Below, in pieces: positions 10,157-38,185 of a stretch of 64,000 nucleotides of DNA. This stretch comes from Streptomyces coryli (GTDB taxonomy: Bacteria; Actinomycetota; Actinomycetes; Streptomycetales; Streptomycetaceae): NCBI RefSeq assembly GCF_011044975.1, contig NZ_JAAKZV010000010.1, positions 1 to 64,000 of the forward strand, in the 5' to 3' direction. Every line of letters begins with the position of its first letter. Positions within the stretch are counted from its first letter, which is position 1. The notes beneath the pieces were generated by a model. The model saw only the letters and a program-made list of their open reading frames with translations, did no database searches and was not told the DNA's origin. Position numbers and translations under genes: made by a program.

Positions 10157-10199
10157 GCTGCTCTGAGCAGCACTGATCGGACATGCCGATGCAGCGCTC

Positions 10200-10263: not shown

Positions 10264-10361
10264 CAACACCCGAACTTCAGCCGTGTTGAAGTCTTGGTGA
10301 TTCATAGTTCAGCTGCGACCATGAGAGGGTGTAAACCCGCTCTCGACGCTCAGGAGGGGAT

Positions 10362-11950: not shown

Positions 11951-11970
11951 GTCGAGGAAGGTGACGGCAC

Positions 11971-14273: not shown

Positions 14274-14636
14274 ATGTCGCTATCGAGACCGATCCCGTCC
14301 AGCCCGCCGCCCGGTGCCCCCATCGAAGACCCGCTAAAGCTCTACCGGCTCCTGCACCTGGAGCGGCCGGAGCGAAAGGCAGAGGTTGAGGCTGAGGTGC
14401 AGGCGGAAGTCGACGCGTTCGACGACCCGCGGATCGCGGCCGTGCTGCGCCAGTTGTCCCTGCCCGAGGCGCACGTCGCCATCGAGTGGGCCCGCAAGGG
14501 CTGCAGCTGGTGGCGGGCGGCCGCGAACCTGGGCATCGCACCGGCATACGGCTACCACGAGCGGGTGCGGCGGAAGCTGAAGCGGCTGGGTGACCGCCAC
14601 ACCGCCCGTGCCGCCGCGGCCCGGGCGCGCGGGTGA
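14274..14636 (+). CDS. hypothetical helix-turn-helix-like protein, 120 aa
   Basis: ATG 14274 (MSLSRPIPSSPPPG) has TAGGGA upstream. After a Pro-rich start, residues about 25-60 are a Glu-rich helix (ERKAEVEAEVQAEVDAF). The C-terminal part resembles a sigma-region-4-like HTH (EAHVAIEWARKGCSWWRAAANLG, then YGYHERVRRKLKRLG). It may bind DNA; no named family recognised. It stands alone between non-coding stretches. Confidence 0.55.
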   Translation: MSLSRPIPSSPPPGAPIEDPLKLYRLLHLERPERKAEVEAEVQAEVDAFDDPRIAAVLRQLSLPEAHVAIEWARKGCSWWRAAANLGIAPAYGYHERVRRKLKRLGDRHTARAAAARARG

Positions 14637-14889
14637 TCATCTTCAGCGCAGCGCACCGGAGTTCCTCGGCGGCCTGGGAGCCGCCACTGCTCTTCGCCAC
14701 CGCCCTTAGCTGTTCCCGGCGTCGGTCGCAAGGCTTCGCGAAATCGCGGTGCGGGCCTTCTGATCAGGTGCTTCCGCAGATTTTCGCGAGGGTTGCGCCG
14801 CTAAGGCTCCCGTCCTCCAGAGTGCAGACCTGCCCCCGACGGCGCCTCGGGGGCTATTCGTTGAACTACGACCGAAGGGACCACCGCCC

Positions 14890-15123
14890 ATGTCCGCCGA
14901 GCCGACCACCCCTCACCCGCAGTCGCCCGCCCCGGAGCCGCCGCCTGGGGCCCGGCCGCTGCTGAGCCTTCACGCCTTCACCGTCCTGCTGGGTGCGGCC
15001 GTCATCGGCGCAATCGCGGCCGGCCTCGCCTACGCCCAGGACCATTCGACGGCTGATGCCGCGATAGCCGGCGGGGGCCTCTTCCTCGTCGCCGTACCGG
15101 GGCTGCACCATCTCATCGGCTAG
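14890..15123 (+). CDS. small membrane protein, 77 aa
   Basis: ATG 14890 follows GAAGGGA at a suitable distance. A Pro-rich N-terminus (residues 1-25) is followed by two hydrophobic segments, FTVLLGAAVIGAIAAGLAYA (about 30-49) and IAGGGLFLVAVPGLHHLIG (about 59-77). It is followed closely by a strong terminator, consistent with a monocistronic unit. The 253 bp before it (14637-14889) show no gene. Function unknown. Confidence 0.6.
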   Translation: MSAEPTTPHPQSPAPEPPPGARPLLSLHAFTVLLGAAVIGAIAAGLAYAQDHSTADAAIAGGGLFLVAVPGLHHLIG

Positions 15124-15146
15124 CGGGGGGGCCTGGCGCCGGCGCC

Positions 15147-15173
15147 CGGGGCGGGGGCCTGGCCCCCGCCCCG
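15147..15173 (+). terminator. intrinsic terminator after the small membrane protein gene
   Basis: CGGGGCGGGGGC (15147-15158) pairs perfectly over 12 bp with 15162-15173 around a CTG loop, followed by CTTTCGG. It lies 24 nt after the stop of the 77-aa gene. Confidence 0.75.
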
Positions 15174-15269
15174 CTTTCGGGTCCGCTCTGCGGCTGGGAT
15201 GTCAGTGCCGCACGACATGATCTTGATTTCATGATCGTTGCACAGCGCGCGCTCCCCGAAAGGCTGACG

Positions 15270-15797
15270 GTGAACGACTCCTTGGCGGACCTCTTCGACG
15301 CCCCCTCCAGCGATTGGTTCGAGGATCCCTTCCGCGATTGGTTCGAGGACCTCTTCGCTCCCCGCACCGACTACGTCTACGTCGTGGGCGGCCGTCTACA
15401 GGTCGATGGTCTCCGGGTCCGCAAGATAGGCATCACGCGCGTGAGAGGGCCGGTCCAGGAGAGCCGGCGAATCAGCGAGCACCGGCGCCAAGGCTTCTCC
15501 TTGCTGAGGTATTGGCAGGTGCCGAGCACTGCAGTCGCTCGTCGAGCCGAACGGTCGGTGCTGAGCTTCATGCGGAAGTGCGGCATGGAGGCGGTGGATG
15601 ACATTCACATGCCGTACGGCGGCGCCACGGAGACCTTCTGGCATCACGAGATCGAGCAGGACTTCCTCAATGCCCTGATCGAGAACGCTGTGAAGATCTC
15701 TGAGCGGCAATGGAGATTGCAGGCCGCCGCCAAAGAAGGCGTCCGCTACCGGAGGACCCTGGGGGACTCGGTCGCCGACGCTGGCGGGTCGGTCTGA
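15270..15797 (+). CDS. GIY-YIG-like protein, 175 aa
   Basis: GTG 15270 (VNDSLADLFDAPSSD) has GAAAGG 6 nt upstream; an ATG at 15231 is the alternative but lacks a site. After a short tandem repeat (DWFEDPFRDWFEDLF), residues about 35-110 follow the T5orf172-type pattern: DYVYVVGGRLQVDGLRVRKI, GIT, RRISEHRRQGFSLLRYW and a helix ARRAERSVLSFM. This is the second such protein within 4 kb. Catalytic residues cannot be confirmed; it may be a DNA-binding relative. The gene converges on the STAND gene. Confidence 0.6.
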   Translation: MNDSLADLFDAPSSDWFEDPFRDWFEDLFAPRTDYVYVVGGRLQVDGLRVRKIGITRVRGPVQESRRISEHRRQGFSLLRYWQVPSTAVARRAERSVLSFMRKCGMEAVDDIHMPYGGATETFWHHEIEQDFLNALIENAVKISERQWRLQAAAKEGVRYRRTLGDSVADAGGSV

Positions 15798-15854
15798 TGC
15801 GACCGCGGGGTCCGGTCAGGGGCCGGAGAAAGACGACGCGCACGGTGTCATCGT

Positions 15855-18518
15855 CTAGGTGCCCTCTGCTGTTCCTGCGGGGCCGGCTCTTCGCTGCTGC
15901 CGTGTGGTGATCAGGTCCCGCCAGCGGCGGCGGACCTGTTCCGGCTCGTCCAGCCAGCGGGTGGAGGAGTTATCGGATGCGGGATGGGCGGCCATCATGT
16001 GGGCGACGTCGACGAGGTGGGCGGAGTCGCCGTTCGCGGTCAGCTCCCGCAGGCGGCCGATCGTCGCCTGCATGGCGGCGTCGTCTTGCAGGACGGCGGC
16101 ATGGAAGCAGGCCACCAGCTGCAGTGTGGGGGCAGCGGAGGCCAGGCCGGCAATGTCGATGGCCGCTTCGACGCTGCGGAACCGCTCGTGCCAGCCGGAG
16201 GTGGTGCCTGCGTCGCGGACCAGGGCGGCCATCTGGGCATTCAGGCTGGAGGCGCGGAGGTCGACGCCGGCCAGGAGTTCCTCGGCGAGGTCAAGTTCGT
16301 CGTCGGCGCGCTCGGGATCGGTGAAGGCCAGGGCGAAGGCGCACAGCGCCTGGCAGGTGGCCGTCTCCCCGGCCTTGCCGTGCTGCTCGGCTTCGCGGCG
16401 GCCGGCCCGGTAGGCGTCGGCGGCCTCGTGGACGCGGCCGTGCGGCCAATACAGGTCGCCAAGGACGCGCTGCTGGCGGCCTTCCCAGCCGAGCTCCTGG
16501 GCGGCGGCGAAGGCGGCGGGGAAGTCACCGCGCAGCCGGGCGAGATGAACCAGGCCGCGGCGGGCGGCGGGAGCCTGGCGGCCCCCGCCGGCCAGGACAG
16601 CTTCCATGTGGCGGCGGGAGTCGTCGGCGCGGCCGATGTCCCGTTCGGCCTTGGCCCGGTAGTACGTGGCCATGTCGGCGAGCTGCCGGGGCAGCAGCTC
16701 GGTGGCGATGAGCTCGGCGAGGCGGGCGACGGTGCGTTCCCGGTGTTCGTGCTGGCGCTGCCGCAGGGTGGTGAGCAGCTCGAGCAGCGCCGCGGCCGCG
16801 GTGTCCGGGCGGTCCGTGGATTCGGCCATGGATGGGGTAAGCGGCTCCCACACCGAGTCGCCGACGTACGCGAACGCGGCCTCGATCAGCCAGCCGAGCG
16901 CCAGGCCGTACTCGGCGGCGAGCGCCAGGCCCTGGCGCAGGCAGGCGATGAGGACCGTACGGTCGCGGCGCGGGCCTTCGGTCCATTCCTCGCCCAGGGC
17001 GGTGTGGGCTCGCTCGGCGGCGCGGCGCCAGTCGTTGCTCGACCACCGGTCGTCGCCGGTGTCGGCGGTGCTGTCGCGGATCGCGGCGCGGATCAGCTGG
17101 TGCAGGTGGTACGGCCACGGGGCGGCGGGATCTTCGGTGATGAAGGGTCGCTCGGCCAGGCGGAGCGCGGCCGCGTCGCGGTCCAGGCCGGCGACGCGGG
17201 TGGCCAGCGGGATGGAGAAGGCGTCCAGCAGGGAGACGGAGCGCAGCACGTGGCGTTCATCGGGGGTGAGGTCGCGTACGGTGCGGACGATCAGCGCCGG
17301 GAAGGGATGGTCGAAGTCTTCCGGTACCGGGGTGCGGCCACTGCGGCGGATCTCCAGGAACCGGCTGATCGACAGCTCGAGGTGCAGCGGAAGCCCGTGC
17401 GAGCGACGGGTGATGGTGTTGCGGATGTCGGCGCCGATGAGCGGCTGGTTGCCGCTGGTGAGGCGGTGGGCGAGGTAGGCGTCGCAGTCCTGGGGTGAGA
17501 AGTCGCCGATGAGGACTTGGCCGCGGGGGTGGGTGTCGGGGCCGGCGGCGAGGTCGGGCCAGGCGGTGGGGCCGGTGAAGTCCAGCTGCCCGGACAGGGC
17601 GGCATCGGCCCACTGCAGCCGGTCGCGGCCAGTGATGACGAACATCGTGTTGGGCATCAGGTAGACGACGTGCTGGATCAGCCGCTCGAGCTCGCGGTGG
17701 GTGCGGTCGCCGACCTCTTCGAAGGTGTCCAGCAGCACCACCGGCACCGGCCGCTTGGTGGCGGGGAGTTGGGTGATATCCCAGGCGAGCAGGTGGGTGG
17801 CGTAGGAAAGGGTGTCGAGGTCGAGGTCGGCCTCGAGGAGGTCGGCGAGGCGGTGGCAGCCGGCCAGGGCGGTGACGCGTTCGTTGCGTTGGCGCAGTGC
17901 GGTGACCAGGGAGCCGATCAGCTGGGCGCCGGCGGCGCCGACGGTGCCGGGCAGCGACAGCGCGCCGGCGACGTCGGCGAGCGTGGACTGCAGTTGTTCG
18001 GGCAGCCGTATGGCGCCGGCGAAACGGGCCGCTAGGCCGCCGCGGCGCAGGTACTCTTCCAGCGGTTCGCCCGGGTGGTGGGCCTCCCACCAGCGGCGCA
18101 GGAACACATCGAAGGCCGGCATCGGCCGGCCGGTGTCGGTGAGCGCCAGGCGGAGGGTGAGCACGAGTTGTTCGAAGTCGGTGCCGGCGGCGCGGGCCAG
18201 GTCGATGCGGATCGGCAGCAGCTGGACCGGCGGCGCCGGCCACTGCGACGGCCGCGCCTGTGTGTTGCGCAGTGAGGCTTCGATCTTCGCCGACAGCGTG
18301 GTCTTGCCGATGCCGCCGACGCCGTGGAAGACGAGCACGTTGTGGCGGGGTGCTTCGACGTCCTGGACGTCGAAGCCGGGCTCTTGCTGCTGCGCCTGGT
18401 GCCGGGCGAGGGCGTCGAGGAAGGCGGCCCACTGGGCCTGGCGGTTGGTGAAGGCCTCCGCCGAGGCCAGGGCGCGGTCGTTGGAGGAGAACAGCGAGCG
18501 TAGATCCCGTCCGGCCAC
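15855..18518 (-). CDS. STAND-family NTPase with helical repeats, 887 aa
   Basis: GTG 18518 (VAGRDLRSLFSSN) has GGGGAGG upstream. A P-loop FHGVGGIGKTTLSAKI lies near residue 65-80 and a Walker B PVPVVLLDTFEEV near 260; ITGRDRLQW resembles the sensor/GxP region of AP-ATPase/NB-ARC modules. A winged-helix-like segment follows, then about 400 residues of TPR-like helical repeats. STAND proteins are nucleotide-gated switches used as regulators or phage-defence sensors. There is no N-terminal effector or DNA-binding domain before the NTPase (only about 30 residues plus a small helical region), so any effector would have to be another protein. Confidence 0.8.
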   Translation of the reverse strand: MAGRDLRSLFSSNDRALASAEAFTNRQAQWAAFLDALARHQAQQQEPGFDVQDVEAPRHNVLVFHGVGGIGKTTLSAKIEASLRNTQARPSQWPAPPVQLLPIRIDLARAAGTDFEQLVLTLRLALTDTGRPMPAFDVFLRRWWEAHHPGEPLEEYLRRGGLAARFAGAIRLPEQLQSTLADVAGALSLPGTVGAAGAQLIGSLVTALRQRNERVTALAGCHRLADLLEADLDLDTLSYATHLLAWDITQLPATKRPVPVVLLDTFEEVGDRTHRELERLIQHVVYLMPNTMFVITGRDRLQWADAALSGQLDFTGPTAWPDLAAGPDTHPRGQVLIGDFSPQDCDAYLAHRLTSGNQPLIGADIRNTITRRSHGLPLHLELSISRFLEIRRSGRTPVPEDFDHPFPALIVRTVRDLTPDERHVLRSVSLLDAFSIPLATRVAGLDRDAAALRLAERPFITEDPAAPWPYHLHQLIRAAIRDSTADTGDDRWSSNDWRRAAERAHTALGEEWTEGPRRDRTVLIACLRQGLALAAEYGLALGWLIEAAFAYVGDSVWEPLTPSMAESTDRPDTAAAALLELLTTLRQRQHEHRERTVARLAELIATELLPRQLADMATYYRAKAERDIGRADDSRRHMEAVLAGGGRQAPAARRGLVHLARLRGDFPAAFAAAQELGWEGRQQRVLGDLYWPHGRVHEAADAYRAGRREAEQHGKAGETATCQALCAFALAFTDPERADDELDLAEELLAGVDLRASSLNAQMAALVRDAGTTSGWHERFRSVEAAIDIAGLASAAPTLQLVACFHAAVLQDDAAMQATIGRLRELTANGDSAHLVDVAHMMAAHPASDNSSTRWLDEPEQVRRRWRDLITTRQQRRAGPAGTAEGT

Positions 18519-21962: not shown

Positions 21963-21990
21963 CCGAGAATTTTCCGCGGAAAATTCTCGG
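21963..21990. repeat. palindrome family copy 1 (28-bp perfect)
   Basis: The core GAATTTTCCGCGGAAAATTC (21967-21986) is extended by CCGA/TCGG to a perfect 28-bp palindrome. It is AT-rich in a GC-rich genome and recurs at 33351, 35519, 36566 and 38166. This copy is in the 139-bp gap between two leftward small genes. Confidence 0.9.
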
Positions 21991-26352: not shown

Positions 26353-26874
26353 ATGCAGAGCCCGGACTATCCCGTCGTCGACGCGCCGGCCTTCCCGCTG
26401 TTCTCCATCACGCCCACGGGCGAGATGATCCTGCTGCAACCGGTCCCCCGCACCGCCGCGCCCGAGCTCGACGAGGCATACACGAACGCCGCGTTCGACA
26501 GCACCTCAGACACGGATCACATGCCGGGGACCGGGGTCAACATCGACGTGCATTGGCGCGTGGCCGCCGACCTCTCTCACGTACTGCTGGTTCTCAACGG
26601 CCGCACGCCGCGGCACTTCAAGCTCGGGGTCCGCCTCGGCGCCACCGAGGACCGTGAACGCGACTTCTTCCTCGACATGGCCCGCCACCATCAGCAGGGC
26701 GGCCCGGTTGTGCTGTTCATCTACCCGGACAAGGAAGACGTGGTCCGGGCCATGGCAGCGCTGCAGAAGGGCGACCCGCTGTTCACGCATCTCGGCATCG
26801 GCGTCGAAAGCGATGTGTACTGCCGGCCGCTGCTGCGCCTGGCCCGCGCAACCACACAACGGCCAGAGCAGTGA
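26353..26874 (+). CDS. hypothetical protein downstream of tap, 173 aa
   Basis: ATG 26353 follows the tap stop by 3 nt with GAGGGGG upstream, so it belongs to the same operon. The protein is globular with strands and helices (GVNIDVHWRVAADLSHVLLV, GGPVVLFIYPDKEDVVRAM) and no membrane segment. No family recognised. Position suggests a role in telomere replication or maintenance. The Tn7-like element inserted 56 bp after its stop. Confidence 0.6.
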   Translation: MQSPDYPVVDAPAFPLFSITPTGEMILLQPVPRTAAPELDEAYTNAAFDSTSDTDHMPGTGVNIDVHWRVAADLSHVLLVLNGRTPRHFKLGVRLGATEDRERDFFLDMARHHQQGGPVVLFIYPDKEDVVRAMAALQKGDPLFTHLGIGVESDVYCRPLLRLARATTQRPEQ

Positions 26875-26930
26875 GCAGCCCCGGAGCCACTCCCCCGGCC
26901 CTCAGCCGCAGGCCAGTTCATCGGGAACGC

Positions 26931-26935
26931 CTCAC
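26931..26935. repeat. target-site duplication, left copy (CTCAC)
   Basis: CTCAC directly abuts the left transposon tip TGTCC at 26936 and is repeated directly after the right tip at 33309-33313. Five-base duplications are the hallmark of Tn7-type transposition. Confidence 0.85.
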
Positions 26936-27075
26936 TGTCCTGTCTCAGCGGACCTGTCCGTCGATCGCGCTGTGACCTGGGGTTGGACAGGTGATGTGAG
27001 ACGACGTCCAGGCTCGCGTCTCATTCGGTGTGGCCAGGCAGCAGCCCCGCGGAGAATCTCATCGAAGTGGCCAAG
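26936..27075. promoter_or_regulatory. left transposon end with TnsB-type repeats
   Basis: After the tip TGTCCTGTCTCAG there are TCTCATTCGGTGTGGCCAG (27019-27037) and TCTCATCGAAGTGGCCAAG (27057-27075), in the orientation opposite to those of the right end. GACGACGT (27000-27007) also recurs inverted near the right tip. These are candidate TnsB binding sites. Nothing else is seen between 26875 and 27111. Confidence 0.7.
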
Positions 27076-27111
27076 AGGGTTTCCGTGGTGCTGTGGGTGG
27101 GCGGCTGGGTC

Positions 27112-27669
27112 TCACTCGGGGCGGTAGCGCAGGTCGAGCGAGTCGGTGCGGTGACCCCAGTGGAGCGTGAGGGACCAGCAACCTGCTTCCGGCAGATCGA
27201 TGATGGACGCCCCGGGCCAGGGGGAGATTGTGCGCTTCTCTGTCCGTCCGTTCACGGCGAGCACGGCTGTGATCCGCAGTTCGCCTGCCGATTCGGCCGC
27301 TGCCTCGCGGGGGATGAACCTGACCTTGTTCTGGCGTCCCCCCTTGAATGTTGACCGTTCGGTCAGGGGGTAGCCGAAGACCACCGCGACGATCTGGCGG
27401 CGGTCGCTGAGGATGAAGTGGTCTGTGGTGCCGTGGGTGAATCCGGCGTTGGCCCAGTCGGGAAGCTTCCCGGAGCGCATCGCGGGCCGGCAGCTGTCAG
27501 CGGTGCCCGTTCTGTTGGCGGACGAGGACTCGCGGGTGGTCTTCGTGGCGGGCTGTTCGTTGGTGCAGCTTGCCAAGGTCACGGTGCTCAGGATGATTGC
27601 TGCGAGCACTCCGGGCCGGCGAAGTGTCAGGTGTCGTAAGTAGGCTGGCCGAGCTGCGTAGTGGGTCAT
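27112..27669 (-). CDS. cargo lipoprotein of the Tn7-like element, 185 aa
   Basis: ATG 27669 follows GGGGACG. A basic start and hydrophobic helix GVLAAIILSTVTLASCTNEQ end in a lipobox-like LASC with Cys near residue 35, so the protein should be lipid-anchored outside the cell membrane. The mature part has a Ser/Thr-rich linker and a globular domain with several Arg residues (HFILSDRRQIVAVVFGYPL). No family recognised. It lies inside the transposon, 91 bp after the last tniQ gene, and is its only non-transposition gene. Confidence 0.7.
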   Translation of the reverse strand: MTHYAARPAYLRHLTLRRPGVLAAIILSTVTLASCTNEQPATKTTRESSSANRTGTADSCRPAMRSGKLPDWANAGFTHGTTDHFILSDRRQIVAVVFGYPLTERSTFKGGRQNKVRFIPREAAAESAGELRITAVLAVNGRTEKRTISPWPGASIIDLPEAGCWSLTLHWGHRTDSLDLRYRPE

Positions 27670-27760
27670 GTCGAGCGTCGTCCCCTTCTGTCGGGGCCTT
27701 GGACGTTGGTGGCGCCATCCCTGGATTACCCCGCGATCCACCTTGAGGTTCCCGCTGCTG

Positions 27761-28741
27761 TCAGTAGAACGGCCAGGGCGAGGTTCGGAAGTCCCGGCTG
27801 GGGCGGTTTGGTGGGGTGGGGCGGGTGGTCTCGTCGGGGTCGAGGGCGCCCCAGGCTCTCCAATGGACTCGGCAGAATTTGTGCTGGATGACGCGCCCCT
27901 TGATCCAGTCGAAGAGTGGGTCGTCCTCCTCGGTGAGTTGGTAGCCGGCGAGGATTTCGCGGCGGGTGATTTCCTCGACGTAGCGCTGGGGGCTGCCTTC
28001 GCCGAGGTAGAGACGCTGTTCCCAGTGGCGAGAGGCGAGCAGTCCGGTGAGGGCCACGATCTCGGCATGGAAGATCACCGGTAGCAGGAGATCTTTGCGG
28101 ATCGGGCGCCGGTTGGCGGCAGCGAGGTTGAGCATGCGGCGGACGATTTCGTGTTGTGGCTGGAACTCGCGTTCCTTGTGCCATTGCAGGTAGATGCTGC
28201 GGGCTTCGTGGAAGCGTTCGCGGACCCAGCGCCGGCCGTGCCGGACGAGGAGGTTGCGGTGGTGGCGTTGGGCCCGGCAGACGCGGGGCAGGCGGCGTAG
28301 ATCGGCTTGGTCGTCGATGCGGTGGCAGCCTTCGCCGATCCAGAGCCGGTGGCGCAGGCAGACGTTGCGGTCGTGGGTGGTCCAGCAGGTGACAGGCTCG
28401 GTGATTCCCATCGCGCGGGTGCAGCGGCGGCAGGCAGGCCGCTTGAGGGCTCGATGGCGGCTGGTGGCGGGTCGTTCGATGCAGCCGGGTTCGTCGGTGT
28501 ACTGCTCGGTGATGAACTCCGGCATCGCCAGGCGGAGGTTGTGGACGGGATAGCCGCTGAGCGTGGACAGCGGCTCGAGCAGCTTGCCCATCGGCGTCTT
28601 CTTGAGCATCCGGACGCCGAGGTGTTCGCGCAGTTCCTCGATGCGCAGGTGGTTCGCGGCGGCCAGGCGAGCAAGGTAGGAGTTGACGGTCTCGTCGTGG
28701 AACGGCCGCGCGGTGCAGGGAAGCTGCCGGTGTGGGATCAC
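27761..28741 (-). CDS. tniQ: TniQ/TnsD-family target-selection protein, 326 aa, zinc-finger type
   Basis: GTG 28741 overlaps the previous stop by 4 nt; a longer upstream frame is shadow sequence of the other tniQ. The N-terminus is typical TniQ: RPFHDETVNSYLARLAAANH. A zinc-binding region follows, RPACRRCTRAMG and CWTTHDRNVCLRHRLWIGEG (CxxC, CxxH). The C-terminal half is helical and basic. TniQ proteins bind the target site or a targeting partner and recruit TnsC. This is the longer of two tniQ genes and the better candidate for the DNA-recognising TnsD role. Confidence 0.85.
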   Translation of the reverse strand: MIPHRQLPCTARPFHDETVNSYLARLAAANHLRIEELREHLGVRMLKKTPMGKLLEPLSTLSGYPVHNLRLAMPEFITEQYTDEPGCIERPATSRHRALKRPACRRCTRAMGITEPVTCWTTHDRNVCLRHRLWIGEGCHRIDDQADLRRLPRVCRAQRHHRNLLVRHGRRWVRERFHEARSIYLQWHKEREFQPQHEIVRRMLNLAAANRRPIRKDLLLPVIFHAEIVALTGLLASRHWEQRLYLGEGSPQRYVEEITRREILAGYQLTEEDDPLFDWIKGRVIQHKFCRVHWRAWGALDPDETTRPTPPNRPSRDFRTSPWPFY

Positions 28742-29343
28742 GGGCGGCCGCCGGGGTGCTGGCGCAGGAAGACGTTGAGCGTGGAGTACGACACCGAGAC
28801 GGAGGCGTGGTCCATCAGGTGCTGCCAGATCGCGCGGGTGGTCATGCCGTCTCCAGCCAATTCGCCGATCAGAGGGGCGTGGGCGTCGAGAACGGGTGGT
28901 CGGGCTTCTTTGGGCCGTTCTCGCCGGGGCGGCAGCGGGGTGTTCAGGGCGAGGCGGGCGGTGCGACGGTCGACGCCGTGCCGGACGGCCAGGCAGCGGA
29001 GTGGAAGGCCGTGTTGTTCGGCATCGCGGCGGATGCGCTGGCGCAGCCGGAGCAGGTGCTCCGGGGGCGGTGCGGCGGCGGTGTGCAGGTTGGTGCGGCG
29101 ACGAGGGATGAGGATGTCGGTCAGGGCCTGGGTGAGTACGTCCGGCGCATAGCCGCTGACGGCTGCGAGCCGCTCCAGGCGGGGTTTGCCGAACCAGGCC
29201 GGCGGCCCGGCGAGATAGCTGTGCAGGCCGCTGGGAGACAGGTGATTGGCGCGGGCCAGGCGGCGGATGAAGGAATCGGTGCCCTCCCCCAGATGCGGCC
29301 GGACGGTGATCGGCAGCAGTGTGGTCAGCGGTGGTGCGGTCAT
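28738..29343 (-). CDS. tniQ: short TniQ-family protein with C-terminal HTH, 201 aa
   Basis: ATG 29343 overlaps the tnsC stop by 4 nt. Residues about 10-60 carry the TniQ start pattern (ITVRPHLGEGTDSFIRRLAR, ANHLSPSGLHSYL). There is no CxxC zinc finger. The C-terminal half looks like transposase-type HTH (LPLRCLAVRHGVDRRTARLA; MTTRAIWQHLMDHASVSVSY). A short TniQ next to a long one recalls Tn7-like systems using two targeting adaptors. It may direct an alternative target or bridge TnsC and the longer TniQ. Confidence 0.8.
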   Translation of the reverse strand: MTAPPLTTLLPITVRPHLGEGTDSFIRRLARANHLSPSGLHSYLAGPPAWFGKPRLERLAAVSGYAPDVLTQALTDILIPRRRTNLHTAAAPPPEHLLRLRQRIRRDAEQHGLPLRCLAVRHGVDRRTARLALNTPLPPRRERPKEARPPVLDAHAPLIGELAGDGMTTRAIWQHLMDHASVSVSYSTLNVFLRQHPGGRP

Positions 29344-30371
29344 CGGCGGCGCTTCTTCGAAAGGGGCTTGTCGTGTTGCTGGGCGGTGTAGTCCAGCGGG
29401 ACGCGGTCCAGGCCGGCGCGGGTGAGTTTCTCGGTGCCGGTGAGGATGGCATCGATGGCGGCTCCCCGGATCTGGTGCGACAGAGCGCCGATCATGCCGC
29501 CGGTGCGGGTGTGCAGGTAGCGGTCCAGACGGCGCAATGTCCCGGCCTGGTGGTCCAGGAGGCAGAGGGTGTCCTCCAGCTGCGCGACCAGTCCTTTCCA
29601 CTCGGTCCCGTAAGGGAAGGGGTGGGTGGGGATGAGGGTGAACCGGCCGGCGATCTGGCCGCCGCGGGTGCCGGCGAACATGCCTTCCTTCTCAACATCG
29701 ATGCCGGCGTAGACGAATGTCACCGGGATGCGTTCGGAGAAGTACTTCAGGGTGTCGGAGACCTCGGCGCCTTGCCGGGTGGTCAGGGAGATGTTGTGCA
29801 GCTCGTCGACGAGTACCAGGCCGCAGCGGGTGTCGGTGAGAACACCGACCACGGCCTCGATGAGGTCGGTGATGTTCGAGCGGGTGCGGACGGGCAGGCC
29901 GAGGAAGCGGGCGAACTCCGCCGCGACCATGCGGGCCGTGGCCGCGGGCGGGACGGTGATGTAGACGACCGGGATCCGGTCGGTGATGCCGGGGTGGCGC
30001 TTGCGGTCGGTCAGCTCGTGCCGCAGGCCGAGCTGAGTGATCGCGGTGGTTTTGCCGGTGCCCGCCAGCCCGGAGACGATTAGCCCGCGGCGGGCGCTGA
30101 TCGCATGCCGGTTCAGCAGCACCAGGCGGCTGCCGACGATGATGGTGTGCTCGATGGCGGAGGTGGCGATCACGAGCATCCGGGTGTGGTGATCGAGCCG
30201 GTCCTCGTCGTAGCGCTCCCGCTCAGCGGCCGGCAGCTGCCGCCACTCGCTGCGGGACAGCCGGGCGGGAATCTTCGGGACCTGGCCGACGAAGTCGCGC
30301 CAGCCCTCCTTGGTGGTCAGCTGACGCTCGGGCGCCTCGGCGCCGCTGGGCAGCGGAAGCGCGGAACTCAT
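29340..30371 (-). CDS. tnsC: TnsC/TniB-type AAA+ ATPase
   Basis: ATG 30371 overlaps the tnsB stop by 4 nt. In the 343-aa protein Walker A is GLAGTGKTT (residues 101-109) and Walker B CGLVLVDELHN (183-193); ISLTTRQGAEVSDTLKYF follows as in TniB proteins. TnsC forms ATP-dependent filaments on target DNA, marks the site chosen by TniQ and activates TnsA/TnsB. The C-terminus is basic (LSKKRRR), suited to contact with transposase or DNA. Length fits TniB rather than the longer TnsC of Tn7. Confidence 0.9.
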   Translation of the reverse strand: MSSALPLPSGAEAPERQLTTKEGWRDFVGQVPKIPARLSRSEWRQLPAAERERYDEDRLDHHTRMLVIATSAIEHTIIVGSRLVLLNRHAISARRGLIVSGLAGTGKTTAITQLGLRHELTDRKRHPGITDRIPVVYITVPPAATARMVAAEFARFLGLPVRTRSNITDLIEAVVGVLTDTRCGLVLVDELHNISLTTRQGAEVSDTLKYFSERIPVTFVYAGIDVEKEGMFAGTRGGQIAGRFTLIPTHPFPYGTEWKGLVAQLEDTLCLLDHQAGTLRRLDRYLHTRTGGMIGALSHQIRGAAIDAILTGTEKLTRAGLDRVPLDYTAQQHDKPLSKKRRR

Positions 30372-32416
30372 CGCCGCCTCCAAGGGTCTTCCAGCGGGTC
30401 GAACAGCCCGAGCGGGATGACCTCCGCGCTCTCCTGCTCCGGTGCGGCCTCCGATTCACCCGCGTCGTGATCGTGCTCCGGCTCAGGCGCCGGGATGGCT
30501 TCGCGGGCCGCTGCCCGGGTGCGTGCCGCAACGCGGTCGCGCCGTTTGCTGCCGGGGCCGGGCGGGCCGCGGTGGGCGCGATCGAGCAGCGCGGCCACCG
30601 CCGCCGCTCGTTCCTGCTCGCTGCCGTCTGGCAGCTCGCGGCGGGCATGGTCCCAGGCCAGCTCGCCGAACGGGCCCGGGACGGTGGACAGATGCCGCCA
30701 GGGAACGGTGATCCAGCCGTCCTGTGGGTGGCGTACCCAGATCCGGGAGACGTCGTAGGGATCGTGGTGGATCTCCCAGAGTCCGCGGTGGACCCGGTCC
30801 CCGGAGTCCTGCCGACGCAGCGGGTTCAGCTCGGCGCAGTCATAGCGGCGGTGGTTGACCTTGATGCCGCCGGCGCCGATGGTCCGCCAGCAGGCCGGCA
30901 GCAGTTCCACGTAGTCGTCGCCGCTGAGCGCGACCGGGACGTAGCCGGCCGCGGCGACCAGGGCGGCGTACTTCTCGTTCGGGGTGAAGGCCCGTCCCGG
31001 CGCCGCCGGGTCGCGTAGCCCGTCGTGACGGTGGTTTTGCCACCTGGCGACGAGCCACTCATCCAGCAGCTCCTGCATCTGCAGCAGCGACCACAACGGC
31101 CCGCCCTCGATGTCGCTGCCGCGCATCTCTGCCGAGCGGCCCAGGTGACCGGCCACGAACTGGCAGAACATCGTCGACACCGACTCCAAGGTCCGCTCGA
31201 TGTGCGGTTTGTCGGTCGGGGTGCCGGGGTGGGCCGGTTGAACGCTGATGCCCAGCGTCCGGCATGAGGCGCGGAAGTTCCGTGACAAGAACACCGCGCC
31301 CCGGTCGCAGACGATCAGCTCGGGAACGATCACGGGTCGGGCCGCGGCGTGCTCCAGCCGTTGATCGATATCCGTCAGCGGCCGGTGCGGCAGCACCGAC
31401 CGGGCCATCGACAGCGCCTGCGACCAGCCCGGCCGCATAGGCTCGGGTGTGACCGCGCGGGCCAGCAGCAGCGAGGCATCCACCGACTTCGTCGTCGGCC
31501 GCAGCACCGCTGCCAGCACCGTGCGTGTGGCGAGATCGACCATGCCGGTCAGCGCGACCCGTCCCGGCACTCCCGCATCGAGCAGCACTGCGACGTCGAA
31601 GGGCGTCGAGTCGATCTGCACCAGCTCACCGGGACGGTCCGCTGTCACCCCACTGAACGGATCCTCCGGCCGGTTCGCCAGCGAGCGGCGTGTGGCAGCC
31701 GATCCGGTGGCATGCCCGCCGGCGTCGACCTTCGCGAACAACCGGTAGAAGGTGGCGCGGGACGGCATCGCCACCACCCCCTCCCCGTGCTCCGCCGCCA
31801 GGATCCGCTGCGTGCGCCAGCGGAAGAACTCCACCGTCTTCGACGACTCGTCCACCGCTTCGGCGAGCGCCTGCCGCAGCGCGGCCACCACTCGCTGATC
31901 ACAGCGGGCCGTCAGCGGCACTCCGCCGTCCCCGCGTCGATCAAGCAGCCCCGCCAGCCCGTGCTCTTCGTAGCGTTTGCGCTTGCGCCGCAGGGTCCGC
32001 TCGGAGCAGCCCGGAACGCCGAGGGCCGCCAGCTCGGCCGCCTTGGCCCGCTCCCGGGCCGCCAGGGTGTGCACCGCCGGGTCGTACTCGTGCCGCGGCC
32101 TTGCGCCCGCCTCCGCCGACGGGATCATCCCGGTCAGCACCTCGTGCAGGTGCTCTTCCCACCACTCCGCCGCGCGCACCGCCTCCGCCGTGGCCCCGGC
32201 CAGGCGGCTGGGCTGCGGCAGCGATAGCCGCTCCGCGTGGCCCAGAATCCGGAAGCCCTCGGACATCTGCAGGTGCGGCAGCTGCAGCACGATCACCGCC
32301 CCGTCGGCGTCGGCCAGCCGCACCAGCGTGCCCTCCAGACCGACCACGCTGTGGACCCGGTCCTCGAACCGCACCTGATCACCGACCCGCAGCCCGGCCG
32401 GCCATGCCCCGCTCAC
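30368..32416 (-). CDS. tnsB: TnsB-type DDE transposase, 682 aa
   Basis: The rve/DDE core shows VQIDSTPFDV (D269), LIVCDRGAVF (D371) and TDKPHIERTL (E407), a D-D-35-E triad. An N-terminal beta region and HTH segment (CSERTLRRKRKRYEEHGLAG, about 137-156) should bind the end repeats. A Mu-transposase-type beta barrel (GIKVNHRRYDCAELNPLRR) follows the core, and a Pro/Glu-rich tail ends the protein, the part that contacts TnsC in Tn7. TnsB cuts the 3' ends and joins them to target DNA. It overlaps tnsA and tnsC by 4 nt each. Confidence 0.95.
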   Translation of the reverse strand: MSGAWPAGLRVGDQVRFEDRVHSVVGLEGTLVRLADADGAVIVLQLPHLQMSEGFRILGHAERLSLPQPSRLAGATAEAVRAAEWWEEHLHEVLTGMIPSAEAGARPRHEYDPAVHTLAARERAKAAELAALGVPGCSERTLRRKRKRYEEHGLAGLLDRRGDGGVPLTARCDQRVVAALRQALAEAVDESSKTVEFFRWRTQRILAAEHGEGVVAMPSRATFYRLFAKVDAGGHATGSAATRRSLANRPEDPFSGVTADRPGELVQIDSTPFDVAVLLDAGVPGRVALTGMVDLATRTVLAAVLRPTTKSVDASLLLARAVTPEPMRPGWSQALSMARSVLPHRPLTDIDQRLEHAAARPVIVPELIVCDRGAVFLSRNFRASCRTLGISVQPAHPGTPTDKPHIERTLESVSTMFCQFVAGHLGRSAEMRGSDIEGGPLWSLLQMQELLDEWLVARWQNHRHDGLRDPAAPGRAFTPNEKYAALVAAAGYVPVALSGDDYVELLPACWRTIGAGGIKVNHRRYDCAELNPLRRQDSGDRVHRGLWEIHHDPYDVSRIWVRHPQDGWITVPWRHLSTVPGPFGELAWDHARRELPDGSEQERAAAVAALLDRAHRGPPGPGSKRRDRVAARTRAAAREAIPAPEPEHDHDAGESEAAPEQESAEVIPLGLFDPLEDPWRRR

Positions 32417-33186
32417 CGGATATCACCGGCCGCCGGGCCCACCACGGTCTCGGATCCCAGCAGGGCCGCGTCCACGTCCACCGCCAGCTGCTGCCGCCAA
32501 AGCAGGTGGAACAGCACCGGCAAGACCGCCAGCGGAGGCCCCACGGCCTCGGCGCCGGCGCGCAGGGGCCCGGGGACGGCGAAGACCTCACGAAGACGCG
32601 CGGCGATCTCCGGCCGCATGCACCGCGGATGCCGGTAGCCGGCCAGCCACCGCAGATTCGCCTCCCGCACCGCCGCCGGGCACCCGATCCGGGCAAAGTC
32701 CCAGCCGACCCGGCCGCAGGCCTCCGCCGTGGCCGCGAACGCCTCGGCATCCTTCTCCCGGATCCGCTCGTCCGCGCGGACGTCCACCACCACAGCCGAG
32801 CCGTCGGCGCGGCGCACGAAATAGTCCGGAGGGTGCCGTCGAAGGCGCCGGCCATCGTGCCAGTGCAGCCAAAACGGCTGGGATGAGATCCCGACAACGG
32901 CCGGGTCGAAGTCCAGCCCGATCAGTACCGACCGCTCCAGCCAGGACTCGTAGCCCACATCCGTGCCCGTGGTCGCGGTCCACCACCAGCCCGTGAAGTT
33001 CTTCTGCCCCCGATACGCCGGGAAGGACCGTGACGGCCGGCACTCCTCGAAGCGCACGTCCCAGCAGGCACTCAGCGCGGACCGGACCACCCGGCCCAGG
33101 CCGTCGACGTACTCCACCTCGAATGGATCCGCCCCGCACAGAGAGACAGCCGCTCCGATCGCACCCGCCATGCCCACCCCCGGCAC
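32413..33186 (-). CDS. tnsA: TnsA-type endonuclease, 257 aa
   Basis: The central region matches the TnsA nuclease: YESWLERSVLIGLDFD (E80), HPPDYFVRRADGS (D121), AVVVDVRADER (D135, R137). In Tn7 TnsA the active site is E-D-QxK; here R137 stands where Lys is expected, which may be a tolerated family variant. The N-terminus (QKNFTGWWWTATTGTDVGYE) is also typical of actinobacterial TnsA-like proteins. TnsA cuts the 5' ends so that the element moves by cut-and-paste. It is the first gene of the operon, about 120 bp inside the right tip. Confidence 0.85.
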   Translation of the reverse strand: MPGVGMAGAIGAAVSLCGADPFEVEYVDGLGRVVRSALSACWDVRFEECRPSRSFPAYRGQKNFTGWWWTATTGTDVGYESWLERSVLIGLDFDPAVVGISSQPFWLHWHDGRRLRRHPPDYFVRRADGSAVVVDVRADERIREKDAEAFAATAEACGRVGWDFARIGCPAAVREANLRWLAGYRHPRCMRPEIAARLREVFAVPGPLRAGAEAVGPPLAVLPVLFHLLWRQQLAVDVDAALLGSETVVGPAAGDIR

Positions 33187-33231
33187 CGCCCAGCACCGAC
33201 ACCACCGAGCGTACGCAGCAGCTCTGATCCA

Positions 33232-33308
33232 CTGGCCAGGTTCGTGAGACTTCTCCCCGAAGGTGGCCAGACCAAGTGAGATCTGGCCACGTCGTCAGAG
33301 ACGGGACA
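33232..33308. promoter_or_regulatory. right transposon end with TnsB-type repeats and tns promoter region
   Basis: CTGGCCAGGTTCGTGAGAC (33232-33250), GTGGCCAGACCAAGTGAGAT (33263-33282) and TGGCCACGTCGTCAGAGA (33284-33301) form three tandem TGGCCA-n-(T/A)GAGA units ending in the tip CGGGACA at 33308. The promoter of the tns operon must lie within or next to them, so TnsB binding may also repress it. Confidence 0.7.
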
Positions 33309-33313
33309 CTCAC
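33309..33313. repeat. target-site duplication, right copy (CTCAC)
   Basis: CTCAC directly follows the right tip GGGACA and matches 26931-26935. Confidence 0.85.
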
Positions 33314-33350
33314 GGCGTGCGTCGCGTAACGCCCGCCCCGGTTGTGCCTC

Positions 33351-33370
33351 GAATTTTCCGCGGAAAATTC
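33351..33370. repeat. palindrome family copy 2
   Basis: GAATTTTCCGCGGAAAATTC, perfect 20 bp, 38 bp outside the right duplication and about 530 bp upstream of parA. Intergenic. Confidence 0.9.
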
Positions 33371-33446
33371 TGGTCCCCTCGGCCGCGCCCCGGCGGCGGG
33401 GGGCAATGACGATGTCCCGTCTCTCACGTGAAGGAACGGCGAGGCC

Positions 33447-33734
33447 ATGAAGCTCAACGCGGACAAGTCCATCCGGCAGGTTCAGCGCCACCACGTTGCC
33501 CAGCACGCTCACCAGGCCATCTGGGACCGACGCGTCAACCCCAACCACGCCGTGCTGAGCGTGGAACGCGACCCCGATCGCCCCGAGGCCGTGATCCTGC
33601 ACGTCAATAGCGGCGGCAACGCCATCGCCTGCCGCAACCACTTCCAGCGCGCTGGATACCGGGTCGAGGACACCGACTACGACCCCTTCGCCGACGGCAA
33701 CTACGGCGTCAGGCTGCGCATCCTGCCCAAGTGA
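33447..33734 (+). CDS. hypothetical protein upstream of parA, 95 aa
   Basis: ATG 33447 follows AAGGAACGG. The 95-aa protein (HAVLSVERDPDRPEAVILHV, NHFQRAGYRVEDTDYD) alternates strands and helices, resembling a small alpha/beta domain. It is followed by a 165-bp gap with the parA promoter. No family recognised. Its position between two palindromes of the partition region is suggestive only. Confidence 0.6.
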   Translation: MKLNADKSIRQVQRHHVAQHAHQAIWDRRVNPNHAVLSVERDPDRPEAVILHVNSGGNAIACRNHFQRAGYRVEDTDYDPFADGNYGVRLRILPK

Positions 33735-33899
33735 GTAGCAGGTCGGCCTCAGCAGGCATCATGCGAACGGTGTCGAGCAGCGCGACACGCGACAACCCGT
33801 GAGTCTCACGCTTGATCATCTGTAAGACTGAGCTCACAACTCATCCGAAGTAGCTGAGCCCTACGCCAAGGGGGCTCGGCGAAACTACGGAAGGAAATC

Positions 33900-34646
33900 A
33901 TGGCCAGAGTTCACACGTCTATGAGCGGCAAGGGCGGCGTCGGCAAGTCGCTTCTAGCCTTCAATCTCGCCGCTGTCTGTGCAGACGTCCGCGGCTACCA
34001 GCCAAACGGCAAGCCCTACGTGGCCCTTGCATCCGCCGACCCGCAGGGAACTTCCCTCTGGCGCGCGAACCGGATTGCGGACTGTCCCTTCGATCAGCTG
34101 GACATCTCCGAAGAGGCCGGGAACCTGCACCAGCTCAAGAAGCTGTCGTACGCGCACATCTTCGTCGACACCCCCGGGTGGACACCTCCCACGCCCGAGC
34201 AGTTCGAGAAGAACAACGACCCGTTCCAGCGGGTGATGTATGGCCCGCTGCTGCGCGAGCTGCTTGAGGTCTCGGACGACGTGATCGTGCCGATGTTCCC
34301 GGAGAAGGACTGCTACGAGCCGACGTGGCAGACGATCAAGTGGGCCGTGGAGCCGGCCAAGGTTCCCTACCAGGTCGTGATCAACAACTGGAACCCGATG
34401 GAATCCAAGTCGTATGTGACCGGCACCCGCATGTGGTGCGACAACCACCAGTTCCCTACGGCGAACACGGTCATCCGTCGGTATCGCGTACACACCAACG
34501 CGAACAACGTCGTCACCCGCTACGAGCCCAGCGGCGGCGCGGCGAAGGCCCGCGAGGACTTTTACCGCCTGGCCCTCGAGCACGGGCTGAAGGGCGCGGA
34601 CGATCGGCTCAAGCAGCTCATTGAGGCCGAAGGAGCAGCCGTCTGA
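33900..34646 (+). CDS. parA: ParA-family partition ATPase
   Basis: The 248-aa protein starts with the deviant Walker A SGKGGVGKSLLAFNLAAV (K11 and K16 both present) and has LASADPQGTSLWRAN (Walker A') and HIFVDTPGW (Walker B), as in the small ParA/Soj group without an N-terminal HTH. ParA binds DNA non-specifically with ATP and is displaced by ParB-parS to move plasmids apart. GGAAGGAAATC precedes ATG 33900. It is coupled to parB by a one-base overlap (TGATGG). Confidence 0.9.
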   Translation: MARVHTSMSGKGGVGKSLLAFNLAAVCADVRGYQPNGKPYVALASADPQGTSLWRANRIADCPFDQLDISEEAGNLHQLKKLSYAHIFVDTPGWTPPTPEQFEKNNDPFQRVMYGPLLRELLEVSDDVIVPMFPEKDCYEPTWQTIKWAVEPAKVPYQVVINNWNPMESKSYVTGTRMWCDNHQFPTANTVIRRYRVHTNANNVVTRYEPSGGAAKAREDFYRLALEHGLKGADDRLKQLIEAEGAAV

Positions 34647-35851
34647 TGGCCGGTACCCGTACTTCGCTGGCCGAGGAGATGGCCGGCACTCTCGTCGGCG
34701 ACGAACTGCCAGCCGACAAGCAGACCATCCAGCGCCGCCGAGGCGTCCCCGGCTCCGAGGGCCCGGCGAAGTTGCTGCCGATCAAGCAGTGTCTTCCCAA
34801 CCCGCGCAATCCTCGGGAAGAGCTGGGCGATCTGTCGGACCTGAAGGGCATCAAGGAGCGGCAGCTGCAAAGCTGCCTCGCGATCACCCCCGAGGCGTAC
34901 CTCAAGCTGTGGCCCGAGGACCGGGAGCGACTGGGTGCCGGCCCCGACGACGTCGTCATCATCAACGGCAACCGGCGCCGGGCTGCCGCCGAGAAGTACG
35001 GCCGGGCCAAGCTCGTCGTCGTCGTCGACGACGGTATCGCCACATCCCGGGCCAGCGTGCAGCGCGCTGCGTACGACGAGAACACGGGCCGCCGCGACTT
35101 CGACCCGATCGAAGAGGCGCGGGCCGTGATGGGCATCGTTGCCGAGTACGCCACCGCCAAGGAGGCCGCCAAGGCTGAGGGCTGGTCGGCGCCGTGGATC
35201 TCGCAGCGCAAGAACCTGCTCAAGCTCCACCCCGAGCTGCAGGGGCAGGTGCGTGCCCACGCGGCCGGCGGCAAGGGGCTGTCCATCCGCATGGCGCGAG
35301 AGCTCGGTTCGGTGAAGGGCATTGAGGGGATGTCGCTCGCCGAGCAGGAGGAGGCACTCGCCGTTTTGCTGCGGGACGACGCCGCGACGAAGTCGTCGGA
35401 GAAGCAGGCGCGGAAGCAGGCGAAGGAAGAGAAGAAGAGGACGGCGGGGAAGTCGGAGAAACCCGCTGCCGCTCCGACCGGCAGCCCGGAGGGGCAGGCC
35501 GATGGGTCGGCAGGACCGGAATTTTCCGCGGAAAATTCTGGGACCACTCCCCCGGTGCCGCTGCCAGGGCAGCGACCGGACGCCTCGGACACCGCCGGCG
35601 CCGATGCAGCCGACGCCGCGGCGACCGACGGGGCCGACGTCGACGTCAAGCAGGAGGAGCCGGCCCTCGATGCCGATGGCGGGCAGGACGACGATGGGCC
35701 GGCCTGGCTGATGCCGGTCGATGCGGTGCGGTACTTCTCGGAGATGTTCCTCGAGCAGGCAGCCGTGCGCGGCATCACCGCCGAAGAGGCTATGTGGGAG
35801 GCGTTCAACGCGATGCGGAACGGTCCCGCAGTCGTTCCGGAAGCCAGTTAG
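34646..35851 (+). CDS. parB: ParB-family centromere-binding protein, 401 aa
   Basis: The ParB N-terminal domain is visible at LLPIKQCLPNPRNPREEL (about 43-60) and VVIINGNRRRAAAEKYG (about 102-118, in place of the GERRxRA loop). An HTH follows (YATAKEAAKAEGWSAPWISQ, about 170-190). Residues about 250-360 are a low-complexity, Lys- then Asp/Ala-rich linker, with a folded C-terminal end (PVDAVRYFSEMFLEQAAVRG). The linker encodes EFSAENS at residues 292-298, which is the translated 20-bp palindrome. It is likely to bind that palindrome family; this is inferred. Confidence 0.85.
   Translation: MAGTRTSLAEEMAGTLVGDELPADKQTIQRRRGVPGSEGPAKLLPIKQCLPNPRNPREELGDLSDLKGIKERQLQSCLAITPEAYLKLWPEDRERLGAGPDDVVIINGNRRRAAAEKYGRAKLVVVVDDGIATSRASVQRAAYDENTGRRDFDPIEEARAVMGIVAEYATAKEAAKAEGWSAPWISQRKNLLKLHPELQGQVRAHAAGGKGLSIRMARELGSVKGIEGMSLAEQEEALAVLLRDDAATKSSEKQARKQAKEEKKRTAGKSEKPAAAPTGSPEGQADGSAGPEFSAENSGTTPPVPLPGQRPDASDTAGADAADAAATDGADVDVKQEEPALDADGGQDDDGPAWLMPVDAVRYFSEMFLEQAAVRGITAEEAMWEAFNAMRNGPAVVPEAS
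35519..35538. repeat. palindrome family copy 3, inside parB
   Basis: GAATTTTCCGCGGAAAATTC lies in the disordered linker region of parB, in frame as EFSAENS. It is the only coding copy in the window. Confidence 0.9.
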
Positions 35852-35868
35852 CCGGTAGGCGTAGAGGT

Positions 35869-35905
35869 GGGCCCTGGCGGTGCGATGTGCGCCGCCGGGG
35901 CCTTC
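35869..35905 (+). terminator. hairpin after parB
   Basis: GGCCCTGGCGG (35870-35880) pairs with CCGCCGGGGCC (35892-35902) with one G-T pair and an 11-nt loop, followed by TTCTTCGT. It lies 18 nt after the parB stop. Confidence 0.6.
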
Positions 35906-36103
35906 TTCGTGCCCGTGCGGTGGCCCACTGGCGAAGGCGGGGGAGGGGATGCACCGTCCGGCGGCGGGCTGAGGGGGGCATCATCCGACTTGGCCCTCAT
36001 GCATCCGAGTGACGAGGGGAGCCCAGCGTTGTGCCTCGCGCCAGACGACGCATACAGTCCCAGGCGCAGGGGCGTTCTCCGGCGTCCTAGTGCCCTCGCG
36101 GCA

Positions 36104-36236: not shown

Positions 36237-36264
36237 TCGTGCCACGCACCGAACCCGCCGCCGG

Positions 36265-36334
36265 GTGCACGGCGTGGCGACCGAAACCGCCACCCGGTGC
36301 ACGGCGTGGCGACCGAAACCGCCACCCGGTGCAC
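36265..36334. repeat. tandem 32-bp direct repeats, possible iterons
   Basis: Two identical 32-bp units (36265-36296 and 36297-36328), each beginning GTGCACGGCGTGGCGACCGA, are followed by a partial third GTGCACGG. A diverged relative with GTGGC-ACCGAAACCGCCA lies at 36421-36438. They are upstream of the prim-pol gene's 3' end, in otherwise empty DNA. Confidence 0.7.
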
Positions 36335-36565
36335 GGTCCGCCCCTTGGTCCGCTCTACGGTCCGCCCGGCTCCGCTGGGATTTCCGCAGGTAGAAGAGAT
36401 TCCCCGGCCCTTGCCGCGTGGTGGCACCGAAACCGCCAACTGATGCACCCCCTCTCACCAGCGGAGTATGCGGGGTGCGCATAATTTGTGAACTGGGGAC
36501 ATACGCGGCTACGCCCGGCTCGCCTTCGAAGAACCGGGCGCAGCATGCATCCCCCGCTGAGTGGC

Positions 36566-36585
36566 GAATTTTCCGCGGAAAATTC
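36566..36585. repeat. palindrome family copy 4
   Basis: Perfect GAATTTTCCGCGGAAAATTC, 23 bp beyond the stop of the prim-pol gene, intergenic. Confidence 0.9.
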
Positions 36586-38165: not shown

Positions 38166-38185
38166 GAATTTTCCGCGGAAAATTC
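38166..38185. repeat. palindrome family copy 5
   Basis: Perfect GAATTTTCCGCGGAAAATTC in the 286-bp gap between the Cys-rich gene and the TniQ-like gene; nothing else is recognised in that gap. Confidence 0.9.

Follow-up and report, generated by a model that had tools for sequence, protein, structure and literature searches.

Tn7 inserts with its right end proximal to its attachment site and at a fixed offset from it. How Tn7-like elements recognize plasmids is an open question beyond TnsE and CRISPR: passages of PMC8649781 report plasmid insertions without an identifiable tnsE, suggest as-yet-unknown plasmid target selectors, and describe an actinobacteria-dominated Tn7-like clade as not experimentally characterized. 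Tandems of tniQ/tnsD genes have been published for 1,048 loci (passages of PMC10293859). We analyzed a stretch of 64,000 nucleotides from Streptomyces coryli (positions 1 to 64,000 of contig NZ_JAAKZV010000010.1, referred to as the window), which contains a 6,373-bp Tn7-like transposon with two tniQ genes in a host replicon that looks like an actinomycete plasmid. A first-pass annotation made from the sequence had called such a compact two-TniQ system apparently little studied; it is less new than this implied, because both the clade, which is large and uncharacterized, and the dual tniQ/tnsD arrangement are already in print in those passages. The element is ordinary as a Tn7-like transposon; its location is unusual. 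Its right end lies at a defined distance from a palindrome that is very probably a parS partition site, and a solitary third transposon end (33413-33423 in its core) occupies the mirror-image position; the first-pass annotation was silent on both the third end and the distance.

The transposon occupies positions 26936-33308 and is flanked on both sides by CTCAC in the window sequence. The 26936/33308 pair ranked top among the 2,184 TGT...ACA pairs with equal 5-bp flanks in the window, and the two tips agree at 11 of 14 terminal bases; the ends and the 5-bp duplication had been annotated correctly to the single base. The features that define the insertion site are:

26931 to 26935, no strand: left copy of the target-site duplication CTCAC, read in the sequence and from the TGT...ACA pair scan
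26936 to 27073, plus strand: left end, with the tip TGTCCTGTCTCAG from 26936
33150 to 33308, minus strand: right end, with the tip TGTCCCGTCTCTG (plus-strand CAGAGACGGGACA ending at 33308)
33309 to 33313, no strand: right copy of the target-site duplication CTCAC, read in the same two ways
33351 to 33370, no strand: palindrome GAATTTTCCGCGGAAAATTC, centre 33360.5, probable parS and presumed attachment landmark
33413 to 33428, plus strand: solitary third transposon end, exact TGTCCCGTCTCT, alike to the right end at 15 of 16 bases

The right end has its first base at 33308 and the third end at 33413; midway between these two bases, at 33360.5, is the centre of the palindrome. Each of them is 52.5 bp from this centre, and for the duplication, real at the right end and putative at the third, the inner edge is 47 bp away. 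The short 11-nt core TGTCCYGTCTC alone is not significant, because 2.65 matches with up to one mismatch are expected in the 64-kb window and 3 are present, although all three are exact. When the 200 bp past the duplication were dinucleotide-shuffled 20,000 times, an end similarity of 12/12 never arose and one of 11/12 arose in 15, and chance was rejected as the origin of the third end on this ground. Derivation as part of an inverted duplication was also rejected: compared as an inverted repeat, the flanking spacers are alike at 14 of 37 positions, and the two sides are therefore not one duplicated block. No partner of the third end, with its putative duplication GACGA, was found next to ACA. 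The arrangement suggests two separate insertions, both gauged from one parS with the right end proximal, the older of which would have been reduced to its tip.

It is also conceivable that the element entered permissive intergenic DNA that contains parS, and that the sequence at 33413 is unrelated backbone. The geometry comes from a single window, dyads are no general trait of the family, and the other parS copies are unused, all of which would sit well with such a coincidence; the 12/12 match within about 100 bp, unreached in the shuffles and placed at the single exact mirror position, makes it unlikely. We consider it probable that the parS palindrome is the insertion landmark.

The assignment of the palindrome to parS derives from its distribution. 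Five exact copies of GAATTTTCCGCGGAAAATTC lie in the window around parA-parB, starting at 21967, 33351, 35519, 36566 and 38166, and the 14-nt core, if at most two mismatches are allowed, occurs six times where 0.04 occurrences would be expected. In addition to the copy beside the transposon, the partition locus comprises:

21967 to 21986, no strand: exact copy of GAATTTTCCGCGGAAAATTC, within a 30-nt palindrome starting at 21962
33900 to 34646, plus strand: parA, encoding the partition ATPase of the replicon (NCBIfam ParA_partition, E value 1.3e-7, below the cut-off)
34646 to 35851, plus strand: parB, belonging to the same host replicon (Pfam HTH_ParB 25.2 bits, cut-off 22.6; TIGR00180 48.6 bits, below its cut-off of 58.45)
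35519 to 35538, no strand: exact copy of GAATTTTCCGCGGAAAATTC, inside parB
36566 to 36585, no strand: exact copy of GAATTTTCCGCGGAAAATTC
38166 to 38185, no strand: exact copy of GAATTTTCCGCGGAAAATTC

Relatives of ParB were sampled as eight loci on seven plasmids (L115 and L119 are one), taken from the best listed among 593 ParB-matching records. CCGCGG-core palindromes are present at all eight, in parB or the corresponding unannotated place at seven and beside parA at one. L104, L114, L115 and L119 have ATTTTCCGCGGAAAAT in parB or the corresponding unannotated place, L116 has GCGTATACCGCGGTATACGC twice in parB, L117 and L118 have GTGGTTACCGCGGTAACCAC twice in parB, and Rhodococcus L120 has long palindromes containing CACCGCGGTG beside parA. 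The palindrome arms covary around a fixed core, in or near parB, which gives the pattern of a parS family. With five copies around parA-parB and CCGCGG-core palindromes at all eight loci, GAATTTTCCGCGGAAAATTC is very probably a parS, as predicted by sequence comparison. None of 392 genomes from the genus to which L045 (a relative described below) belongs contains the exact 20-mer, and it was found in no viral contig.

The palindrome might instead be the operator of a regulator or another type of plasmid repeat, which would leave the target logic unchanged. Such a role is in keeping with the promoter-like region in which the dyad of L045 and L106 is found, and the parS identity itself derives from comparison of sequences; however, arm-changed CCGCGG-core palindromes recur in parB at seven of the eight loci with related ParB, and five identical copies surround parA-parB, and we regard the operator assignment as distinctly improbable.

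Two further observations concern the partition regions. At L120, the parS-like palindromes at 5046 and 7086 are 50 and 56 nt long, and their outer arms, TGTCCGTTTTGTC, resemble the transposon ends of that group. Downstream of parB in the window (36248-36448) there are three to four iteron-like copies of a 23-32-nt direct repeat with 32-nt spacing.

Relatives of the element were collected by scanning GTDB genomes with TnsB, which gave 215 confirmed stretches, the best 80 of which were kept. In every one of these 80, tnsA adjoins tnsB, and most of them continue with matches to TnsC and TniQ. Thirty-one of the 80 were delineated, partly by eye, from TGT...ACA pairs with equal 5-bp flanks; L034 was kept despite its low score (9/14), L062 was omitted despite 10/14, as was L025, whose pair was unlike the family ends, and the first of two possible left ends was used for L039. 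For tests on 36 elements, L106, L107, L109 and L110 were added and the window was included; L122, delineated later, is not part of this set. The right end of L106, TGTGGCGTCTCG, was chosen via its duplication. The delineated elements share TGTCCnnTnnCA at their ends, and their 5-bp duplications differ in sequence. Copies with other duplications, which the first-pass annotation had anticipated, are exemplified by L068 and L076: both are 10,347 bp long with identical printed 30-base ends, and their duplications are GCATG and GTGGG. Exact ends and a 5-bp duplication thus hold across the family. L110 (about 9842-12556) is a 2,715-bp element with intact ends and the duplication GCCGA, in which only tnsA and a partial tniQ2 match are found; it is an internally deleted and probably non-autonomous copy. 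On the plasmid of Rhodococcus sp. AH-ZY2 (L130), three TnsA-TnsB-TnsC-TniQ units are adjacent, of which the first and second stand head to head.

Several relatives point to homing at a fixed distance: at L109, L110 and L122 the insertion begins 40 bp past a shared TCAACGAT, though the nearer sequence differs. L045 and L106, which have both TniQ proteins, carry a 9/10 dyad 46 and 45 bp away, on the side where the window has its palindrome, and both occupy the promoter side of one same gene, which we read as aconitase from its N-terminus. An upstream block shared by L026 and L130 is placed at 29 and 31 bp. In 8 of the 36 elements, counting the window, a further transposon end occurs no more than 110 bp from an element end; the expectation, given 20 background hits in 744,254 bp, is 0.21. 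This would agree with attachment sites that different elements have used repeatedly. At the right ends of L002, L037, L130 and L131, two tips point the same way and are 14-17 bp apart (L002 by eye), the picture that would result if a newer element inserted into the tip of an older one at the same site. On the Rhodococcus plasmids L129 and L132, different elements follow similar genes (ATP-binding protein, hypothetical protein, M23-type peptidase, hypothetical protein), and this neighbourhood is possibly a shared plasmid attachment site.

The closest relative, L091, is on a plasmid of Streptomyces sp. NBC_01643 (TniQ2 66% and TniQ1 59% identical). Its element (12173-17346, duplication ATGGG) is defective, most of tnsB being lost. 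The plasmid has six parS-like palindromes, TATTACGSCGTAATA, and another Tn7-like end lies 49 bp from the centre of one of them. A 1.08-kb segment of this plasmid (L091:7481-8563) has a Tn7-like end on each side, unequal flanks (CTTGG/TAGGT) and a position between parS-like palindromes.

Several results weigh against the palindrome as landmark. On the L091 plasmid, the parS-like copy nearest to the element is 1.4 kb away, and the right flank of the element has no strong dyad; the end at 49 bp and its apparent partner do not have the same duplication (CTTGG/TAGGT), and this partner is 13 bp from another palindrome copy. Only one of the five parS copies in the window is used, though twice; at the other four no 12-nt end motif was found at the mirror distance, the one loose motif being 41.5 bp beside 36566. 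At the eight ParB-relative loci (window and L091 excluded), no end was found within 120 bp of any of the 17 parS copies. Perfect dyads with 10-bp arms are present in only 7 of 36 right flanks, as compared with 1 of 36 left flanks and 5 of 1,080 random windows; by Fisher's test, right flanks differ from left flanks with p = 0.028 and from random windows with p = 1.4e-8, with the 36 elements not being independent. The left flanks are the fairer control because the random windows are mostly coding. The plasmid-borne elements L083, L124, L126 and L129, with matched duplications, have no dyad of at least nine matched bases. An empty site was not found: none of 19 matching plasmid records covers 80% of the 11.4-kb region, and on the syntenic plasmid NZ_CP108634.1 (L104), where the homologue of the 592-aa gene upstream is 64% and that of ParB 61% identical, the insertion region is not alignable.

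Recognition of the landmark would fall to the two TniQ proteins:

27761 to 28741, minus strand: TniQ2, a compact TniQ of 326 aa with a zinc finger (Pfam TniQ 33.8 bits, cut-off 27)
28738 to 29343, minus strand: TniQ1, 201 aa, TniQ N-terminal domain and IS21/IstA-type helix-turn-helix (HTH) (Pfam TniQ 25.6 bits, just below the cut-off of 27)

In TniQ1, residues 106-195 match the NCBIfam IS21 transposase family (E value 1.7e-9, below the family cut-off), and the C-terminal region matches the IstA structures 8q4d and 8b4h (E values 0.0065 and 0.0073). The protein has neither CxxC...CxxH nor a zinc finger; its AlphaFold2 model has four N-terminal helices and two more helical groups (predicted local distance difference test, pLDDT, 85.0; predicted template modelling score, pTM, 0.64). 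In TniQ2, the zinc-type ligands C104, C107, C128 and H131 are invariant across 24 sequences, and the model has a TniQ-like core with no long C-terminal extension (pLDDT 84.8, pTM 0.80). Profile searches matched TniQ structures weakly (E values of 0.012 and above). TniQ2 relatives were found in 14 of 392 genomes at E values up to 1e-20 and in 6 of 394 at up to 1e-45, the two draws overlapping, and in no viral contig. The two may divide the labour, in which case TniQ1 would read DNA and TniQ2 would be an adaptor or second selector.

Two routes to the palindrome can be envisaged. TniQ1 may bind it directly through its IstA-type HTH, with TniQ2 serving as adaptor or for another site; the sequence match of residues 106-195 points in this direction, as do TniQ1-like proteins (16 sequences aligned) at 16 or more loci, several without a TniQ2-like match. 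However, TniQ1 of the window and that of L045, about 50% identical, adjoin quite different palindromes, so that either TniQ1 has changed its specificity or the palindrome is read by something else. Direct reading is plausible, though short of what we would expect on balance. Alternatively, a TniQ may contact ParB loaded on parS, the symmetry arising from the ParB dimer, comparable to the sensing of resolvase-occupied res by the Tn5053 family. A looser, ParB-coated zone could account for the L091 element 1.4 kb from parS, and the compact TniQ2 lacks a long C-terminal extension, a compactness that passages of PMC10293859 describe as a hallmark of elements with an extra selector. Sensing of ParB is harder to reconcile with L045 and L106, whose same two selectors lie beside a different palindrome at a near-equal distance (a ParB system was not searched for there), and with the HTH that TniQ1 itself possesses; we hold it to be a real possibility, if not the expected outcome.

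In the mechanism that we propose with the parS palindrome as landmark, the transposon would move autonomously by cut-and-paste, as a Tn7-like member of the actinobacterial TnsA clade. TnsB would bind repeated sites in both ends, TnsA and TnsB together would excise the element, and the TniB-like TnsC would connect them to the TniQ target selectors. The palindrome, or ParB bound to it, would be recognized by a selector, and insertion would take place with the right, tnsA-side end facing the landmark, as in Tn7 at glmS, the landmark being the putative parS immediately upstream of the host parA-parB. This landmark would be readable in both directions because it is two-fold symmetric, and an earlier insertion on the opposite side at equal distance may have left the solitary end at 33413. 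One of the two TniQ proteins would read the palindrome, and the element is presumably still active. More tentatively, dual-TniQ actinomycete elements in general might use a plasmid pathway that takes parS (the palindrome or ParB on parS) as its landing mark, at a constant 47 bp and whichever way the element is oriented, with palindrome-marked promoters as chromosomal homes.

The remaining genes of the element, all on the minus strand as are the two tniQ genes, are:

about 27112 to 27675, minus strand: small cargo gene for a lipoprotein-like product, with a lipobox recognized by eye
29340 to 30371, minus strand: TnsC, TniB-like AAA+ ATPase, 343 aa from ATG 30371 (Pfam TniB 57.9 bits, cut-off 22.4)
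30368 to 32416, minus strand: TnsB, DDE transposase, 682 aa (Mu-transpos_C 28.1 bits, cut-off 21.7)
32413 to 33186, minus strand: TnsA, endonuclease subunit (NCBIfam NF033179 TnsA_like_Actin 305.7 bits, cut-off 110)

By family match, a predicted TnsA endonuclease for cut-and-paste is present; the Pfam TnsA N-terminal domain scores 21.1 bits, below its cut-off of 26.5. In TnsB, rve scores 29.6 bits (below the cut-off of 32.6), the Tn6677 TnsB structure was matched, and D269, D371 and E407 form a candidate catalytic triad. TnsC contains the Walker-type GLAGTGKTT, matched TnsC structures, and has an alternative start, TTG 30383, that is likewise open. TnsB, TnsC and TniQ are encoded in one operon, an arrangement that characterizes Tn7-like transposons. 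The first-pass reading of a Tn7-like element of the TnsA+TnsB type is borne out by the NF033179 TnsA, the DDE transposase, the TniB/TnsC ATPase, the two TniQ proteins and the 5-bp duplication. The element is also intact, as had been annotated, in that all six genes are without visible damage, and the reported 4-nt overlaps are present at all four core junctions, provided that tnsC begins at ATG 30371. The lipoprotein gene is separated from the core operon by an 86-nt gap; it has no Pfam family, had no match among the 80 relatives of the TnsB scan, and has a single tblastn match in the plasmid collection (Nonomuraea, 37%). The left end has an inverted repeat (26942-26959/26985-27002) and a TnsB-site-like TCTCATCGAAGTGGCCA at 27057-27073, and the right end has a TnsB-site-like TCTCACGAACCTGGCCA at 33233-33249. 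The consensus for these sites was drawn by eye from the element's own ends and has one exact match per end; three to four sites per end are discernible by eye alone.

Literature searches, with subscription papers mostly outside their reach, found no report of parS targeting by Tn7-like elements, and in passages of PMC8987985, where parS and Tn7-like terms both occur, they are unrelated; the NCBI name of the TnsA family turned up in one paper. If the proposal is true, a parS-measuring selector would be a new plasmid-finding pathway beside TnsE, CRISPR guides and res-site hunting, exploiting a site needed by any partitioned plasmid. Its symmetric signature, TGTCCNNTNNCA ends at plus/minus 52.5 bp from the parS centre, would be directly searchable, and the 201-aa selector, in which a TniQ domain is joined to an IstA-type HTH, would amount to a small module for protein-guided targeting that is perhaps portable.

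The element shares with Tn7 (TnsD/attTn7 at glmS) the TnsA, TnsB, TnsC and TniQ families and, on the proposed reading, the proximal right end and the fixed offset, but differs in that the presumed landmark is a plasmid palindrome rather than a chromosomal gene, no TnsE is seen, and a long TnsD C-terminal region is lacking. Like the res site hunters Tn5053/Tn402, it has a TniB-sized TnsC, a 5-bp duplication and a plasmid maintenance site as probable target; unlike them, it has tnsA, and the target would be parS and not res. Membership in Tn5053/Tn402 was rejected on the presence of tnsA and the absence of a resolvase or recombinase among the element's gene hits. With dual TniQ-TnsD elements and CRISPR-associated transposons (CASTs; I-B, I-D, Tn7017) it has in common two TniQ-family selectors in one operon, whereas its shorter selector, in contrast to the CAST TniQ described in passages of PMC10293859, has no zinc finger and carries HTHs. 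A CAST or other RNA guide was rejected, which agrees with the first-pass annotation of no CRISPR: the core open reading frames are otherwise assigned, no cas genes are among the element's open reading frames, and 26700-36000 has no Rfam match, no dedicated CRISPR finder having been run. The closest likeness in gene content and ends is to the actinobacterial TnsA_like_Actin (NF033179) clade, with TnsA, TnsB, a TniB-like TnsC and TniQ, TGTCC.. ends and 5-bp duplications, to which the window element adds an IstA-type-HTH TniQ beside the zinc-finger TniQ and a position at the probable parS.

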